25,849 nt of DNA, taken from IMG/VR virus record IMGVR_UViG_3300021963_000584, positions 1-25,849 of that record. One strand, 5' to 3'. Made by a program: the position numbers and the translations under genes. The notes beneath the pieces were generated by a model. It was not told where the DNA came from, ran no database searches, and saw nothing but the letters and a program-made list of their open reading frames with translations. Below, piece by piece: positions 7,111 through 24,000 of this stretch. This DNA comes from a virus. Positions within the stretch are counted from its first letter, which is position 1. The number at the start of each line of letters is the position of its first letter.

Positions 7111-8349
7111 ATGTTAATAACATTACAGGGGGCGGATCTGTTCCCATGGCAACAAGAAGTATATCGTTCTTATATTGAAGATGACTTTAAAACGTATATC
7201 TTAAACACATCTAGACAGATAGGTAAGTCATTACTTATCAGCCAGTTGGTGTTGCATTCAGCAATTAACAATGAAAAGGTTATCGTAGGGGTGGTGTCAT
7301 TGACGTATAAACAGACCAAATTAATTTACAACAGCATCAGCGAAATACTTGCAAATACACCACTTTTGGCCAGTGATAACAAGTCAGAACTTGAAATAAA
7401 GTTGGTTAATGGGTCATCCATAAAATTCCTATCCATCCAGAACTACGATGCAATTCGTGGTCACACCTTCGAATATTTATTTTGCGATGAGGCTGCTTAT
7501 TATCCACCAAATGTATACCAACAGGTATTGCAACCAACTACACTAGCCAGGGGCCGCAAAACGGTTCTATGTTCAACCCCAAGGGGTATCAATTACTTCT
7601 ATGACTTATACATGCGTGGGATGGACCAGGATGATAAAACAACCATATCATTTAAATATGACTTTACCGCTAACCCCTTCTTCAACCTGGATGAAATTGA
7701 AGCCATTAGAAAGCAATTACCAGATGGGATATTCCGTGCAGAATACTTGGGTGAATTTAGTGAAAACAGTTCGGTGTTCGGTAATGTAAAAGATGTGTGT
7801 ATTCACCATGGGTATCCAACACCAAGTGGTAATTTATTCTGTGGTATTGACGTTGGTTTATTCCATGACTATGCTGTTGCATCCATATTTGATGCAAACG
7901 GTAATTTGGTCGCATTTTACCGTAGCAAAACAGGTAGCATAAATAAATTAAATTCAGAACTTGAAGAATTTTTAAACAAATACAAACCCACAAAAACCCT
8001 CATAGAATTGAATAACGTTGGGGTATCGGTATATGAACACCTTCAGCCACGTGTTCGTGGTGTGGAAGGCTTTAAAACAACCGCTGTGTCGAAGCCAGAT
8101 CTTATCAACCAACTACAGAATAGTATTGAAGATAAAAGAATTAAATTATTACACCAACAATTCATACCAGAAATATACGATGAACTGGTGAACTTCACTT
8201 TTAATTACAGTGAAAAGACCAGGGCCATCCAATATTCAGCGTTGCCAGGTAAGCATGATGATATTGTCATCAGTTTGGCTTTGGCCAATAAGATATTTGT
8301 TGAAGCAAACTTCAGCATTAAACCAAAAATAAAAGTTCGTTTTGGATAA
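7111..8349 (+). CDS. terL: Terminase large subunit (packaging ATPase and nuclease)
   Basis: This 412-residue motor protein has all expected motifs. Walker A is at residues 33-40 (TSRQIGKS), Walker B at 122-129 (YLFCDEAA) with catalytic E127, and the coupling motif CSTPRG at 154-159. The C-terminal RNase H-like nuclease has D247 in GIDVG, E299 in LIELNN and D383/D384 in KHDDIV, the three metal-binding positions. It translocates DNA into the procapsid through the portal and cuts the concatemer. At 412 residues it is on the short side for the family but no motif is missing. Its ATG is two bases after the small-subunit stop. The motif order is clear enough to exclude other ATPases. Confidence 0.96.
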   Translation: MLITLQGADLFPWQQEVYRSYIEDDFKTYILNTSRQIGKSLLISQLVLHSAINNEKVIVGVVSLTYKQTKLIYNSISEILANTPLLASDNKSELEIKLVNGSSIKFLSIQNYDAIRGHTFEYLFCDEAAYYPPNVYQQVLQPTTLARGRKTVLCSTPRGINYFYDLYMRGMDQDDKTTISFKYDFTANPFFNLDEIEAIRKQLPDGIFRAEYLGEFSENSSVFGNVKDVCIHHGYPTPSGNLFCGIDVGLFHDYAVASIFDANGNLVAFYRSKTGSINKLNSELEEFLNKYKPTKTLIELNNVGVSVYEHLQPRVRGVEGFKTTAVSKPDLINQLQNSIEDKRIKLLHQQFIPEIYDELVNFTFNYSEKTRAIQYSALPGKHDDIVISLALANKIFVEANFSIKPKIKVRFG

Positions 8350-8384: not shown

Positions 8385-9193
8385 ATGGAAAAAATTAAAT
8401 ACAAAGATATTGAATATAACATCCCCACATCTTGGGATGAAATGACAGTATTGCAATTATACAGTTTAAATGACTATATAGCGACATTAGGTGATACGGA
8501 AACGGATGATAACATCATCTATTCAAATATATTCCACCATATGACTGGTTTGAATAAAAACGCATTTTTAAAGTTATCTATAACTGATGCGATGGCCTTC
8601 AAACAGGCTATGTTATTTATTACCACAACAAAAATTAAGGAAGAAGAATTTAAAAGTGAAATTGAATATAAACAATATGTTTTAAAGGTTAAGAATTTTG
8701 ATAAACTTAACTTTGGTGAATACATAGATGCGACCGCAATTTCATCTGAACCATCATCAAAGAATTTAATTAAATTGTTATCGTTGGTGACGGATGTTTA
8801 TCTTAAAAAGAATATAAAAAAGTTTAGGTTTAAGGATAAGTTGGTTAATGCAACCCAAGAACAAAAGGAAGATATTATATCTAATTTACCAGCCACCAAA
8901 GCAAACGCAATTGTCGCTTTTTTTTTGCGTGGTCAAAAACAGTTAGGTCGCAATACAGTGTCTTATTTGAACAGACTGGCTCTTCGTCTGGCCATGAGAG
9001 CAATTTTGCTGGGGGTTGGTCTTACTATATTTGGCTTATGGACGCATGTCAAGATGATGTTACGAAACTTAATGAAGTGGTTGTTCTTCCGTTCAGACAA
9101 GTCATTACCTACCTTACCTACAGAACATCAAAAAATAACATGATAGAAGCTATCAGAAAAGAACAAGAACAACAGTCAAAATATAAAAGATAA
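8385..9193 (+). CDS. Tail-assembly-chaperone-like protein made by a -1 frameshift
   Basis: The frame from ATG 8385 is well-formed for 180 codons. After a T9 run (8918-8926) the same frame gives a hydrophobic, cation-rich sequence and stops at 9143. The -1 frame instead gives natural protein sequence (FEQTGSSSGHESNFAGG..., DDVTKLNEVVVLPFRQ), is open for 89 codons, and ends at TAA 9191-9193, overlapping the next ATG by one base as elsewhere in this operon. The T run supplies a perfect slippery heptamer T_TTT_TTT (8918-8924) in the correct phase. The slipped product would be 269 residues. In siphophages a -1 slip commonly joins two tail-assembly chaperone parts before the tape measure. The location differs here, since tail-completion genes and two large tail genes intervene. 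A T10 misread as T9 is the alternative; either way the downstream half belongs to this gene. Confidence 0.8.
8918..8926 (+). promoter_or_regulatory. T9 slippery sequence, -1 frameshift site
   Basis: Nine T residues are in phase as GCT-TTT-TTT-TTG. Both ribosomal-site tRNAs can re-pair after slipping one base back. No strong stem downstream was identified by eye. The same run is a typical place for sequencing or assembly errors. Confidence 0.7.
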
Positions 9194-9633
9194 TGAATTA
9201 CAGTCAATTAACAACCTACCTTAAGACCACCGCTGCATCCCACATTAATGTGGTATATTCTGAAGCTGGTTATATAGAAAACCTTAACTGGGGTGAAAAC
9301 AACTATCCAATGGTGATGTTTGTTTGTCAACCTGGTACATTCAGCATAAACAAAATAAGATACAACATGACCATGATAGTGGCCGACATTATGGATGATG
9401 CAACCTTGCAACAAATTACCAAACAGTCGAACATGTTTGATATCGGCCGTGATATTATCAACCAGATATTGTTGGATAGTCAACCTTCTAGTTCAACTTT
9501 TGACCTTATTGAAGACAGTGTGATATTCACACCGTTTACCGATAACTTACCAGACCTTTGTACTGGGTTCCAATTTGACTTTGTAATTGAGGTTCAAAAT
9601 AAAAATAGTTGTGTATTACCATTCGGGAACTAA
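9193..9633 (+). CDS. Tail terminator/completion-like protein
   Basis: The 146-residue protein overlaps its neighbours by one base at each end (TAATG). It shows the pattern NWGENNYPMVMFVCQPGTFSINKIRYNMTMIVADIMDD, then QITKQSNMFDIGRDIINQILL. A strand with Y-P, a long beta hairpin, 'D-x-x-D', then a helix that recurs as I-x-x-x-x-x-x-D-I-x-x-I is usual for small proteins closing the top of siphophage tails (the tail terminator fold). The remaining beta region (FTPFTDNLPDLCTGFQFDFVIEVQN) fits this fold. It is followed by a gp10-like gene, another usual neighbour. The family call is from pattern and context. Confidence 0.6.
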   Translation: MNYSQLTTYLKTTAASHINVVYSEAGYIENLNWGENNYPMVMFVCQPGTFSINKIRYNMTMIVADIMDDATLQQITKQSNMFDIGRDIINQILLDSQPSSSTFDLIEDSVIFTPFTDNLPDLCTGFQFDFVIEVQNKNSCVLPFGN

Positions 9634-16011: not shown

Positions 16012-19000
16012 ATGGCTGATAATATAAAAAAGATAATACAAATTGAATTTCAAGTCAATAACGCACCTGTACAACAATTCGAAGGTACGCTTGACGAAGT
16101 TATTGCAAAAGTCGCTGAAGTTGAAGAAGCAATTAGTACGCTTCCAGATGCTGAATTAAAATTAAAGGTTGATGGTGTTGAAAAGACCACCAAAGAACTT
16201 AAAGACTTAGAACAGCAAACCAAGAAAACTGATAAAGCCATGGATGGCTTAGGTAAAGAAACTGGTGACTTATCCAAAAGCTTTGCTGACATATATGGTG
16301 AAGCGCAACCCCTTACAGGTAAGCTTGGTGAAATTGAAGACCGTTTATATGCGTTAGCTGATGCTGGTAAAACAAACACCAGTGAATTTGCCACTTTAAC
16401 AGCTGAAGCTGGTAGGTTAAGAAAAGCGCAGATCGATGTGGACCTTGCTGTCGATAGTGCAGCTAAAACCATCGGTCAAAAGATGGGTGGCGCATTAAAC
16501 GCTGCTGCTGGTGGCTTTGCTGTTGCACAGGGTGCAGCTGGTTTATTTGGTTCAGAAAATGAAAAGGTTGAAAAAGCTTTATTGAAGGTTCAAAGTGCTT
16601 TGGCAATTGTATCTGGTATCACCGCATTCCGTGAAAACAAAAAAGATATTGCTGGTTTAGTAACAAGCTTTGGCAACCTTTCAAATGGTATCGGTGGTGC
16701 CATAGCTAAAATGCTTGGTTTTGGTACAGCTAGTGCTGTTGCTGGGGCTGAAGCTGAAGCTGGCTTTGCCGCTGCATCAACTGGTGCAAAAGGTTTTTCT
16801 GTTGCTTTGACCGCAACTGGTATTGGTGCCATCATTGTTGGTATTGGTGTTGCCTTGGCTGTTGTTGCAGCTTATTGGGATGATATAACCAAAGCTGTTT
16901 CTGGTGTATCTTCAGCTGAACGTGATAGTCTTGAAAAAGCTAAAGCTAATACCACTGAACAACAACGTAAATTGGATAACTTAAATTCCCAAGATGAAAC
17001 GTTAAAAGCGCAAGGTAAAAGCGAAGAAGAAATTCTAGCTTTAAAAAAGCAACAAACACAAAAGGTATTGGATGCCACCAAACTTGAACAAAATAAAGCT
17101 GACCAAATTGCTAAAGCTGAAATTGAACAGGCTAAAAGAAACAATAAGATATTACAATTTATTGTAAGGGCTGGTATTGAAGGTGCTACCTTAATGTTAA
17201 GGTTATTAGCATTACCAATTGATGCCGTTATTGAAGCTGTTAATATTGCCAGTGAAGCGTTAGGACTTGGTAAAGCAATTGACTTTAACATCAACGCCAA
17301 AATTAGTGATATAAACGCTTCATTAGCTAAGGGTGCTGCTGACTTATTTATTGACCCAGCTGAACTTGAAGCTGAACGCCAAAAAACATTAAAGACTAAT
17401 GAAGAAACTAATATAGCGCTTCAAAACCAACTTGACGGTTTCGATAACCAAATTAAGGATAAGAAAAAACAAAAAGGGCAAGAAGCTGCAAAAGCCACTG
17501 CTGACCTTAATAAAAAAATTATTGACGAAACAAAAAGACATAATGCTGAATTAGCAAAAATTGCTGAAGATGCAACCAAGTTAGCATTGGAAAAAAGAAA
17601 GCAAGAAGCAAAGACATTGCTTGACGAATTGGCTATAGACCAACAATTGGAAATGAACGCTTTAAAGAAAGGTTATGATGACCAAATTAAAGCTGCCACC
17701 GATGCTGGAAAAGAAATTCAAAAACAAATTGCTGGTGGTAAAGATGCTGAGGGTAAAGCTTTAAGCAAAGCGCAATTGGACGCATTGAAAAAACAGGTTC
17801 AAAACTACAATGATGAAGTTGTTAAACTTACCGCAAATAGAACCCAAGCTGTAACAAACTTGGAAGTAACTCAAGGTGAAAAGACAAAAGAAATATTGGA
17901 TGACACCTTAAAGGAACAACAAGCTTATAATGAAGAAGTTTATGGTTTGACACTGGAATTGGTTAACGCACAAACTGACCTTGAAAATAAAGCTTTGGCT
18001 GAAAAGTTAAAACAATACGGTTTCACCGAAGAACAAATTGCTGCCATCCAAAAGAAAAGAAAGGATGCTGCTGGTGATGAATTTACACAAAACATCAAGA
18101 AGCTTGAAAGTGATAAAGCATATTTCGATGCCCTTGCAAAGATATACAACGATGATACTTTAAACCAAGAACAAAGAGCTAAGGCAATTGAAAAACTTGA
18201 TAAGAAAAGAACAGCTGATGCTTTAACAAATGAATTGGTTATTTTAAAAAGCAAACAAAAAGCTGGTGAAGAAGAAACAAAGGGATACAAAGAAAGGGCT
18301 GCCAGAATAGCTGAAATTGAAGCACAACAAGCACAAACATCTGTTGAAACAACTGAAGATGCTGAAGCTAAAAAACAAAAAGCTAAAGAAGAAGCTTTTG
18401 ATAGGGCGGTTGAATTAGCGAATGCGTTGGCGGATCTGGCGCAAGCCTTGCTTGAAATTGAAACAGCACGTATTGAAAGCGAATATGAAAAACGTGCTAA
18501 TGCACAACAAGATAGAACCGATAGGTTATTAGCAAATGATGAATTAACCGCTGAACAACGTACTGAAATTGAAAGAATGGGTGCTGTTGAAAGTGCAAAA
18601 ATTGAAGAAGAAAAACAAGCTAAGTTAAAAGATATTCAAAAGAAACAAGCTGATGTTCAATTTGCAATTACAGTTGCTAATATTATCGCACAAACTGGTC
18701 TAGCTTTAGCTGAAGCGGCTACATATTTAAGTAACCCAGTTACAGCACCACTTTATCCAGTTATCGCTGGTTTAATTGCTGGTATTGGTGCAGTTCAGTT
18801 AGCTACAGCTACAGCACAAAGAGCTGCTGTTCAAGGTTTAGCACGTGGTGGTATGGTTTATGGTCCTGGTGGGCCAACTGATGACCTTATCCCAGCGATG
18901 TTATCAAACGGTGAAGCTGTAATTAACGCAAGTGCTGTATCAAAGTTTGCCCCTGTTTTATCAGCGATAAACCAAAGTACTGGTGGTGCACCTATCAAAC

Positions 19001-19200: not shown

Positions 19201-20238
19201 ATGGAATACCAAAGACCAATATACGACATTAGCATTAAGGAAGCCTTACATTTGGGGGTTGATGAAGTGGCATTTGTACACGACCCTGCGATGCAAGAAT
19301 TATTTGTGGCAATGGCCAACGAAATAACAAAACTATTATTATCTGAAGATGATAAGATGATAGTTACAGGACCAGCATTGGTTCCAGATAAACTTATCTA
19401 TCGTGTTCACCCAAAGACAGGTGCTGAATATTACATCCGTTTTAGTGAAGAAGTAATTCAACAAATTGTGCAAAGATATTTCACCCAAAACCGTCAAATT
19501 CATTTCAACCTGGAGCATAATAAAGAAAATGACGTACAAGGGGTTATTTTGGAAAGCTGGATAGTGGAAGACCCATCGATGGATAAAAGTGCTGCAATGG
19601 GCTTTAAACAGCTTCAAAAAGGTACATGGATGATAAGTGTTAAAGTTCAAAGTAAAGAATTCTGGAATGACTATGTAAAAACTGGTAAGGTTCGTGGGTT
19701 TTCAATAGAAGGTGCATTTGGTCAAAGCCTTGCTGAAGCAATGGCAAACCAGGAATTGGTTGAACCACATTCTGGTGAACACCAGGATGAATTTATTCCA
19801 CGTTGTGTTGCATATCATGTTGATAAAGAAAATATGGACCCCGATCAGGCAACAGCCATTTGCTATACCAAGTGGGATGAAAAGCTTAGGGTTGGTGAAA
19901 AAATTGGTTATGACTTTGATGGTACCATCAGCACCCGTATAGGCCAGGCAATGGCTGAAAAGGATATTAAGTCTGGTTCAACCGTTTACATCATATCAGC
20001 ACGTTCATCTGCATCTGGTATGTATAGAATTGCTGACAAACTTGGAATACCGCATGACCGTGTATTTGCGATGGGTGGTAACTTGGCTAAAGCTGAAAAG
20101 GTTAAAGAACTTGGTTTGGATACATTCTATGACAATAACAGAATGGTAAGACGTTTGCTTCCACGTGGTGTAGGTGTTAACTTCACCTTAAGTGAACAGG
20201 AAATTGAAATACTAATTAAAGCTGCGATAGAAGCATAA
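19201..20238 (+). CDS. Prohead protease (XkdF-like S78-type) fused to a HAD-like domain
   Basis: This 345-residue protein has two linked parts. Residues about 50-185 read as a phage serine prohead protease: MIVTGPALVPDKLIYRVHP, IHFNLEHNKEND (candidate catalytic H106), VILESWIVEDPSMDKS, GTWMISVKV, and GFSIEGAFG with candidate catalytic S168. Such proteases mature the head by cutting scaffold and capsid. Next comes DEFIPRCVAYHVDKENMDPDQATAICYTKW (about 197-225), a motif found at the end of phage head proteins and of unknown function. Residues 236-345 have HAD phosphatase motifs: DFDGT (238-242), ISARS with S266, K297/K300, and YDNN (310-313). The protease part is usually encoded beside the portal or capsid gene; here it follows the tape measure. 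Either the HAD part is active on a nucleotide or phosphopeptide, or it is structural. Confidence 0.85.
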   Translation: MEYQRPIYDISIKEALHLGVDEVAFVHDPAMQELFVAMANEITKLLLSEDDKMIVTGPALVPDKLIYRVHPKTGAEYYIRFSEEVIQQIVQRYFTQNRQIHFNLEHNKENDVQGVILESWIVEDPSMDKSAAMGFKQLQKGTWMISVKVQSKEFWNDYVKTGKVRGFSIEGAFGQSLAEAMANQELVEPHSGEHQDEFIPRCVAYHVDKENMDPDQATAICYTKWDEKLRVGEKIGYDFDGTISTRIGQAMAEKDIKSGSTVYIISARSSASGMYRIADKLGIPHDRVFAMGGNLAKAEKVKELGLDTFYDNNRMVRRLLPRGVGVNFTLSEQEIEILIKAAIEA

Positions 20239-21838: not shown

Positions 21839-21870
21839 CAAATGTAGTAGTTATTTTTTTACGGTGCAAC
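21839..21870 (-). promoter_or_regulatory. Promoter of the three-gene small operon (Bacteroidota type, weaker)
   Basis: Read leftward: GTTG (21870-21867), a 20-base spacer and TACATTTG (21846-21839), then 20 bases to the ATG at 21818. The -7 element matches TAnnTTTG; the -33 element and the conserved spacer are poorer than in the other four. It overlaps the stop codon of the helicase gene. Confidence 0.65.
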
Positions 21871-23951
21871 TATTTGTTTAAATATTTTTTACATTCTTCA
21901 AACCATCCGTTTTTTTGCGCTGCATCTAATGACCCAGATGATGCTTTAGTCCATTCACCTATACTTTTATATTTTTTAGCTTCTTCAATACAACGTTCCT
22001 TTATCCAGTAACCCCTAGGTTTATTTTTTATAACCATATGTACCGTACATTCTTCTAACCAACCATTTTTACGTGCCCATTGATATGATGAACTTGAACC
22101 AAGTTGCCATTCAGTTTTTGAATTATATTTTTTAGCTTCTTCAATACAATTATTTTTATCATTCCAATGACCTTGTTTAACATACACTATATGTGCTGTG
22201 CATTCTTCTAACCAACCATTTTTACGTGCAACATTAAATGACCCACCAGAACTTTTTTGCCATTCACGAACACGTTTATATTTTTTAGCTTCTTCAATAC
22301 AACGTTCTTTGGTCCAATAACCTTTTGGGGTATAATTGGTCATATGACTAATACATTCATCAAACCAACCATTTTTACGTGCAATATTTTCAGAACCACC
22401 AGAATTTATTTTCCATTCATTTGGTGAATTATATTTTGCAGCTTCTTCAATACAACGTTCTTTTGTCCACCAACCCATAGGTAAAACTTGATACTCACCC
22501 AACAAATATTTAACCTCACGTATCTTAGCAAAGCTGTGGTTTACCATCGCTTCACCATTGTCTTTGTGCAATAGGTCTTTGAAGAAACGAATACCTTCTG
22601 GCAACCCCAAGAACTCAACTGGTTGTATACCAGTTTCTCTACGTTGACGTGGTTCACCTGGTTCACCTGGTTCACGTGGTTCACGTGGTGATCTAGGTGT
22701 TCTTACAACAGGAATTTCAAGGTCCAAAAAGTTCTCACCATTATACTTCGTATAGTAGCTTTCATCACACAAACACATCGTGGCTGTCATAATGTATTCA
22801 TAATTGTGTTCAAGGTCCTTAGGGGCAATTTTAAAGAAGAATTTCTTTCTACCATCTGGGTGCTTACGAATAACACGACACATCAATTGAAAGATACGGT
22901 CGATGTTCTGTGTACCAGACATATCAACCACGTTTATCATTCTTGTAAAGCTAAACCCTAAAATACCACGACCAACTACAATAAGAACACGACAGTCCTC
23001 ATCATCTTTAAAGCGTTGAATTTCTGATGATGTGCTGTCGGTATCGGACGTACTTAACGCAACGTTTATATTCTTTGACATGAAGTAGTTTCTAATTTGT
23101 CTGGCTTGTTCCTGTGAACGTGCGACTATCATCGTCTTATCCAAAGCCTTCAATGGTAGGTGCCACCCAGTCAATGCCGATACACCAGCTTCAATTGATG
23201 TAAATTCTTTTAACACCGACTTTAATTTGTTAACAAGAACACCTAAAAAGTCATTCAACGTGTTAATGGTTTCTTGTTCCTGGAATTGGTAGTCTTCACG
23301 AACTTCACCAGACGCATTAAAGTCCGTGCGGTTCATTTTGTAATTAGAAGATGCTACAACAACTGTAAGGTCTTCAACCATGTCATAGTCAAGAATTTCA
23401 TTTACGGTAATTGTAATAAGCGGAAATTCGTTTAAGATGAATATTGAAGGTGTACCAGTCAACATCAACTGATGTTTAACACCAGCTTGTCTAATGATAT
23501 TCTGAACCATATCAGCAAAGTAGAATTGGTGTGCTTCATCAACAACCACCATATCGAATTTTGGTAATTTCTTAACACCTTTGATAGACTGTGGGATAGT
23601 TACAACAACCTGTGCATCGCATTCATCCATTTCACGTTTGCGTGTAATTTCACAATGCGTAAAGTCTGGGTTGGCACCCACAATTTCTTCATAGTATTGT
23701 GAACGCAATACGTTTGTACCGTGGGCCAATACCAACACCCTAAAGTCTGGGTTATCTTTTAGAATGGTATCTATCATACAGATAGACATAAGAGTTTTAC
23801 CAGCACTTGGGCATGCAGCAAACACCGTTGGTAGTTCTTGGGTTGCAAGTGAAGTGATGACAGTTTGCATCTTTTCAGCTTGGTATCCCAGTTGTTTCAA
23901 GTTTCTTTTAGCAAACCATTCGCTAAAGTCGTAGTTAATTTTTGTTTCCAT
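21870..23951 (-). CDS. SF2 DNA/RNA helicase with four C-terminal repeats
   Basis: The start is the ATG at 23951 (693 residues); the TTG at 23972 is inside the promoter box. The helicase core has motif I ACPSAGKT (46-53), motif II DEAH (138-141), motif III TGTP (165-168) and a motif-VI-like QLMCRVIRK (355-363), where R359 and R362 are the arginine-finger positions. A proline linker (PREPREPGEPGEP, about 422-434) and a short region follow. Residues 493-693 are four repeats of 47-53 residues with the plan G-x-W-x-K-E-R-C-I-E-E-A-K-K-Y-x-S-x-x-E-W-x-x-x-S-x-G-S, then ARKNGWxEEC. They resemble small DNA-binding modules added to phage nucleases and helicases. A role in replication or recombination is likely. 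The gene has its own promoter. Confidence 0.9.
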   Translation of the reverse strand: METKINYDFSEWFAKRNLKQLGYQAEKMQTVITSLATQELPTVFAACPSAGKTLMSICMIDTILKDNPDFRVLVLAHGTNVLRSQYYEEIVGANPDFTHCEITRKREMDECDAQVVVTIPQSIKGVKKLPKFDMVVVDEAHQFYFADMVQNIIRQAGVKHQLMLTGTPSIFILNEFPLITITVNEILDYDMVEDLTVVVASSNYKMNRTDFNASGEVREDYQFQEQETINTLNDFLGVLVNKLKSVLKEFTSIEAGVSALTGWHLPLKALDKTMIVARSQEQARQIRNYFMSKNINVALSTSDTDSTSSEIQRFKDDEDCRVLIVVGRGILGFSFTRMINVVDMSGTQNIDRIFQLMCRVIRKHPDGRKKFFFKIAPKDLEHNYEYIMTATMCLCDESYYTKYNGENFLDLEIPVVRTPRSPREPREPGEPGEPRQRRETGIQPVEFLGLPEGIRFFKDLLHKDNGEAMVNHSFAKIREVKYLLGEYQVLPMGWWTKERCIEEAAKYNSPNEWKINSGGSENIARKNGWFDECISHMTNYTPKGYWTKERCIEEAKKYKRVREWQKSSGGSFNVARKNGWLEECTAHIVYVKQGHWNDKNNCIEEAKKYNSKTEWQLGSSSSYQWARKNGWLEECTVHMVIKNKPRGYWIKERCIEEAKKYKSIGEWTKASSGSLDAAQKNGWFEECKKYLNK
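21873..22475 (-). repeat. Four imperfect tandem repeats of about 150 bp in the helicase gene
   Basis: Units at 22323-22475, 22173-22322, 22014-22172 and 21873-22013 (in translation order) code for the four protein repeats. The CIEEA(K/A)KY core and the ARKNGW(L/F) core are the best-preserved parts. The units are diverged enough to be stable but close enough to mark recent duplication. Confidence 0.9.
22651..22686 (-). repeat. Four tandem 9-bp repeats coding for the (R/G)EP linker
   Basis: On the + strand the unit is GGTTCAC(C/G)T, four times in a row, two of each variant. It encodes the EP-rich flexible linker between the helicase core and the repeat domain. Like the VEP repeat in the scaffold-like gene it keeps frame if its copy number changes. 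Confidence 0.9.
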
Positions 23952-23969
23952 AGTATTGAATTTATATTG

Positions 23970-24000
23970 CAAATATACAACTTATTTTTTACCCACCAAA
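23970..24000 (-). promoter_or_regulatory. Promoter of the helicase gene (Bacteroidota type)
   Basis: Read leftward: TTTG (24000-23997), a 19-base spacer starting GTGGGTAAAAAA, and TATATTTG (23977-23970), a perfect TAnnTTTG. Transcription starts near 23965, leaving a leader of about 14 bases before the ATG at 23951. The box differs from the late-type TATATTTA only in its last base. Confidence 0.85.

Follow-up and report, generated by a model that had tools for sequence, protein, structure and literature searches.

A T9 run joins two reading frames

We found a viral gene in which a run of nine T residues (T9) joins two reading frames, and we put the probability that programmed recoding at this run, whichever machine slips, yields two proteins from one gene at about 0.92. 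From the comparison of sequences we infer that both proteins are produced and have a use. The gene represents a new, unannotated recoded gene family; in the open-access literature, no paper was found that describes recoding for it or for these phages.

The DNA analyzed is a 25,849-base virus record (the whole stretch is called the window below) that carries portal, neck, protease, and tape-measure genes together with a large terminase. The terminase (7111–8349, plus strand like all parts of the locus; 60%–88% identity in relatives, with terminase matches in phages) is the conserved upstream neighbor of the gene. Frame 0 starts at the ATG at 8385, stops at 9141–9143, and encodes a product of 252 amino acids (aa). 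Its first 180 aa (8385–8924) make up an N domain with a beta-hairpin and helices that would be common to both products, as delimited by the alignment of eight genomes, AlphaFold, and BFVD. The run occupies 8918–8926 and begins at codon position 3 (GTC GCT TTT TTT TTG CGT). It offers two overlapping slip heptamers in phase, T_TTT_TTT (8918–8924) and, as a second usable one, T_TTT_TTG (8921–8927). In the −1 frame, 8924–9190 is open, and the TAA that follows (9191–9193) overlaps the ATG at 9193 of the downstream neighbor (9193–9633; placed by alignment, with a weak match to P12024S gp41). This frame encodes a C domain of 89 aa (8924–9193, stop included), whereas the unshifted product would end in a frame-0 tail of 72 codons plus stop (8925–9143). 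The preliminary description of this DNA had located the run, the frame-0 stop at 9143, the open −1 frame, and the overlap with the next ATG correctly; its in-phase T_TTT_TTT is present, and a slip at the run does lead into a conserved C domain encoded by the −1 frame.

Two other genes of the window may be recorded here. The ORF at 19201–20238 encodes an XkdF-like phage protease (Pfam Peptidase_S78_2, E = 1.7e-16) and continues into a nucleotidase-like stretch (phrog_8630, E = 4e-4), in appearance a two-domain fusion. A helicase-like protein on the minus strand (21870–23972) has repeats in its C-terminal third, with ∼4–5 copies of GYWTKERCIEEAKKY..W....S......A.KNGW.EEC.

Conservation of the run and of the −1 frame

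The comparison set comprises eight distinct viral genomes, that is, the window and seven others with homologs; IMG/VR relatives were found with the −1 peptide, and two more were reached via the neighboring terminase. A final profile scan gave zero further homologs, and one candidate from Clostridia (L020, from the genome contigs) was a false match, being a glycosyltransferase. In all eight genomes frame 0 encodes the N domain, frame −1 encodes the C domain, and the junction has exactly T9 followed by G (NNT TTT TTT TTG). Identity to the window's N domain is 20%–47%. Alignment of the −1 peptide with its homologs, a check that the preliminary description had proposed, gave 48%–73% identity, and dN/dS over the C-domain stretch is ∼0.15–0.35 in the −1 frame versus ∼0.8–1.3 in frame 0. 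By this measure, purifying selection acts on the −1 frame and not on frame 0.

An independent start for the C domain can be ruled out, since the −1 frame of every homolog lacks ATG, GTG, and TTG from the run to +120. An ATG upstream in the −1 frame is found in a single genome (L010, at −24). In two genomes (L008 and L011) a −1 stop lies immediately 5′ of the run, so that the frames must be crossed at the run or after it.

Cultured relatives and single-ORF homologs

Searching phage records with the N and C domains by tblastn gave zero matches; the Nonlabens phages P12024S and P12024L were reached via portal and protease synteny. Both have a T9 split gene, at 23136–23830 in P12024S (L038, NC_018271.1) and at 2052–2746 of the P12024L locus (L041, NC_018272.1 21895–27137). 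In P12024S the gene corresponds to gp38 and gp39, which lie behind the terminase gene. gp38 contains T9 at 23578–23586, and its −1 frame C domain aligns with that of the window; gp39 is the mere end of this C domain, taken from an internal ATG. The window-type fused protein matches that of P12024S with E = 7.6e-7 (hhalign), and the AlphaFold model of the window's N domain (pLDDT 84) matches gp38 in BFVD with E = 3.4e-6. The P12024 genes are thus homologous to that of the window and resemble it in location, in two-frame architecture, and in having nine T residues at the corresponding site of the protein. They differ in a frame-0 tail of only ∼25 codons and in a run that is one codon position off, beginning at codon position 2 rather than 3. 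In the annotation, the split genes gp38+gp39 and gp40+gp41 of P12024S/L appear as two distinct hypothetical proteins, and PHROGs assigns each half to an unknown family of its own (phrog_32199 and phrog_38404). Polaribacter phage P12002S has a different gene order.

Homologs encoded by a single ORF (259–301 aa) were reached through Flavobacterium phage 6H, a BFVD match. They occur in Duneviridae (Flavobacterium, Cellulophaga), Bacteroides phage BT-TP2, Polaribacter phage Leef, and a Microcystis phage. The fused-protein profile aligns with the single-ORF profile end to end over 244 columns (E = 1.7e-13, hhalign), with the junction in register: The residues there are LYFASF, LFFGAM, or LFFASC in single-ORF proteins and FFFAW in those of the window type. 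The fused product is therefore the full-length form of an existing family. Duneviridae-type hypothetical proteins (phrog_25418) share whole-length homology with it and the same structural cluster, but their genes are one ORF, uninterrupted at the junction, with a longest T run of at most six. As these single-ORF relatives make plain, some phages of the family do without the short form. The split is carried by one clade and P12024 only; a single origin would be compatible with the gene tree, though barely supported by it.

In the 6H record itself (L051, NC_021867.1, 10047–10927, minus strand) the homolog is broken into several frames. Phages 95% identical to 6H, such as FPSV-D15, have it as one ORF, so that the 6H record probably has sequence errors, and we rejected 6H as a multiply shifted homolog.

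The frame-0 tail

Past the run, frame 0 stays open for 38–72 codons across the homologs. When openness was compared with a null of synonymous recoding in which the −1 frame is held, it was in excess in seven of eight genomes (single P from 0.0007 to 0.07; combined P ∼3e-4 over five clades), and the third frame gave no such effect in the same test. Since frame 0 is open in all homologs, and beyond the null in nearly all, synthesis of the frame-0 product is probably purposeful as well. The preliminary description held that sharing of the frame-0 tail among homologs would speak against frameshifting; as an amino-acid sequence, the tail is not conserved. Accordingly, the tail may be of importance solely as a spacer, or in that it keeps termination from occurring early, before the next gene is reached. 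The same description also expected annotation to list a wrong C terminus. It is right that annotation loses the C domain, but "wrong" is too simple a word for a frame that is kept open and a product that is probably purposeful.

Homopolymer indels are frequent mutations, and a T10 in place of T9 would turn the window gene into a single ORF. Among the eight genomes and P12024S/L there are zero T10 alleles, so that both products are probably selected.

Homopolymer runs in the window

A/T runs of at least nine are not rare across the whole AT-rich window (first-order Markov null, ∼3.4). The significance of T9 therefore comes from the absence of such runs in coding sequence, from its conserved length, and from conservation of the −1 peptide. 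T9 is the sole A/T run of at least eight inside a gene: The other ∼22 kb of coding sequence has none, against 5.5 expected under synonymous recoding, and runs of at least seven number four in coding sequence against 15 expected. Long A/T runs are common between the genes of the window and strongly avoided inside them. Among Phe codons TTT is the commoner (136:91), so that the ninth T alone is a weak sign of polymerase slippage.

Polymerase or ribosome

Ordinary reading would give the N domain with the frame-0 tail. In some expression events an additional U would in effect be read at the run, either by insertion of a base by RNA polymerase (T9 to U10) or by a −1 slip of the ribosome on U_UUU_UUU or U_UUU_UUG; the −1 frame would then be read to give an N+C protein of 269 aa.

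We give about even odds to slippage of the polymerase on T9, in which mixed mRNAs would arise and the U10 messages would be translated normally to the fused protein. A length of nine in every member, across two different codon phases, speaks for such slippage, although most of the nine positions are constrained, which makes the exact length only modest evidence. The purging of long A/T runs from the other genes of the window fits as well, but could stem from replication slippage. Many bacteria avoid A/T runs from length nine, and a conserved nine-base run linking two ORFs has been proposed as a mark of purposeful slippage (PMC1088944). Downstream of the run there is also no RNA structure that a ribosome might use: Single-sequence folding gave z-scores from −1.5 to +1.4 and no stimulator, and RNAalifold gave −0.8 kcal/mol and no conserved structure, a stimulator being common but not obligatory. 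This lack counts against ribosomal −1 frameshifting on U_UUU_UUU (or U_UUU_UUG), which, as in lambda-like tail chaperones, would have to proceed unaided by a structural stimulator, and which we regard as a serious but somewhat doubtful candidate. The precedents among phage tail chaperones are ribosomal, with stimulator-free shifts in certain tailed phages (PMC5009743), and T_TTT_TTT is in phase in all members and fits X_XXY_YYZ. Yet every T9 holds an in-phase heptamer, so that its presence carries little information, and T7 would suffice for it. The fixed run length, the purged coding A/T runs, and the lack of conserved structure together tilt the balance slightly toward polymerase over ribosome. 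That the slip is neither transcriptional nor ribosomal is unlikely.

The existence of single-ORF relatives invites two further explanations. The gene might be a rescued pseudogene, in which an ancestral T10 lost one base, unavoidable slippage corrects the loss, and the fused protein alone is functional; but T10 should then return easily and be favored, and it is absent from all genomes, while frame 0 is kept open. We consider this very improbable. Nothing except these relatives speaks for a sequencing or assembly error at the homopolymer, with a true T10 and one ordinary gene, as the preliminary description had allowed. An identical T9 in the eight distinct genomes, whose contigs stem from several metagenomes, and in the genomes of two cultured phages argues so strongly against such an error that we give it hardly any credence.

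Programmed recoding at T9 also has parallels among the 9A/9T slippage genes (Shigella mxiE, IS transposases), in which likewise an A/T run joins two overlapping ORFs and the longer protein comes from one added base; within the 9A/9T class the run length is conserved, and transcripts vary in the length of the run. Two features of that class are found in the window gene, namely a conserved nine-base run joining ORFs and avoidance of runs elsewhere in genes; it differs in that it sits in a phage structural cluster.

Comparison with tail-assembly chaperones

Lambda-type G/GT pairs resemble the proposed products in that a single start gives rise to two proteins, of which the longer has a C domain gained via a −1 slip, in that the −1 extension overlaps the first ORF and is kept across relatives, and in that the gene belongs to the structural cluster. 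The frameshift efficiency in a phage chaperone cluster is ∼6%–7% (PMC3711429). Chaperones of the G/GT type bind tape measure and tail tube proteins and do not occur in the virion. The T9 gene differs in its long frame-0 tail, its pure T9 slip site, and its single-ORF homologs. It also lies ∼7 kb upstream of the tape measure (at 16012 in the window), whereas the classical place is adjacent to that gene; in the single-ORF relative Ingeline the homolog is ∼1 kb upstream of the tape measure.

Its product has no match in curated families, including Pfam and NCBIfam, and nothing significant in PDB sequence and fold searches. A match to phrog_29715 is colinear but insignificant (E = 0.16), one BFVD entry named tail assembly chaperone matches weakly (E = 0.03), and the model of the C domain (pLDDT 60) is too poor for a fold search. 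With no curated match, weak fold and profile hints, and this distance from the tape measure, the product is a plausible but putative tail-assembly chaperone. Of the programmed, siphophage-tail-chaperone-type slip put forward in the preliminary description, the slip is borne out by its conservation; the chaperone part lacks a significant match and the expected position. We give somewhat less than even odds to the reading that the two products are a G/GT-like pair acting in tail or neck assembly. We would go further with more reserve still: Polymerase slippage on an exactly conserved T9, rather than the ribosome, may set the N-only to N+C ratio of a tailed-phage assembly pair. Sister phages encode its homologs as single ORFs, and the unshifted member of the pair would have a maintained frame-0 tail of its own.

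For these phages, automatic annotation yields a product that is wrong or incomplete and drops the C domain; even the cultured P12024S record and PHROGs cut the gene into two parts. Should both products be required, flavobacterial and related phages have a new protein family that depends on recoding. The T9-split and single-ORF homologs form a natural comparison, both for the role of the short form and for whether polymerase or ribosome sets the ratio.
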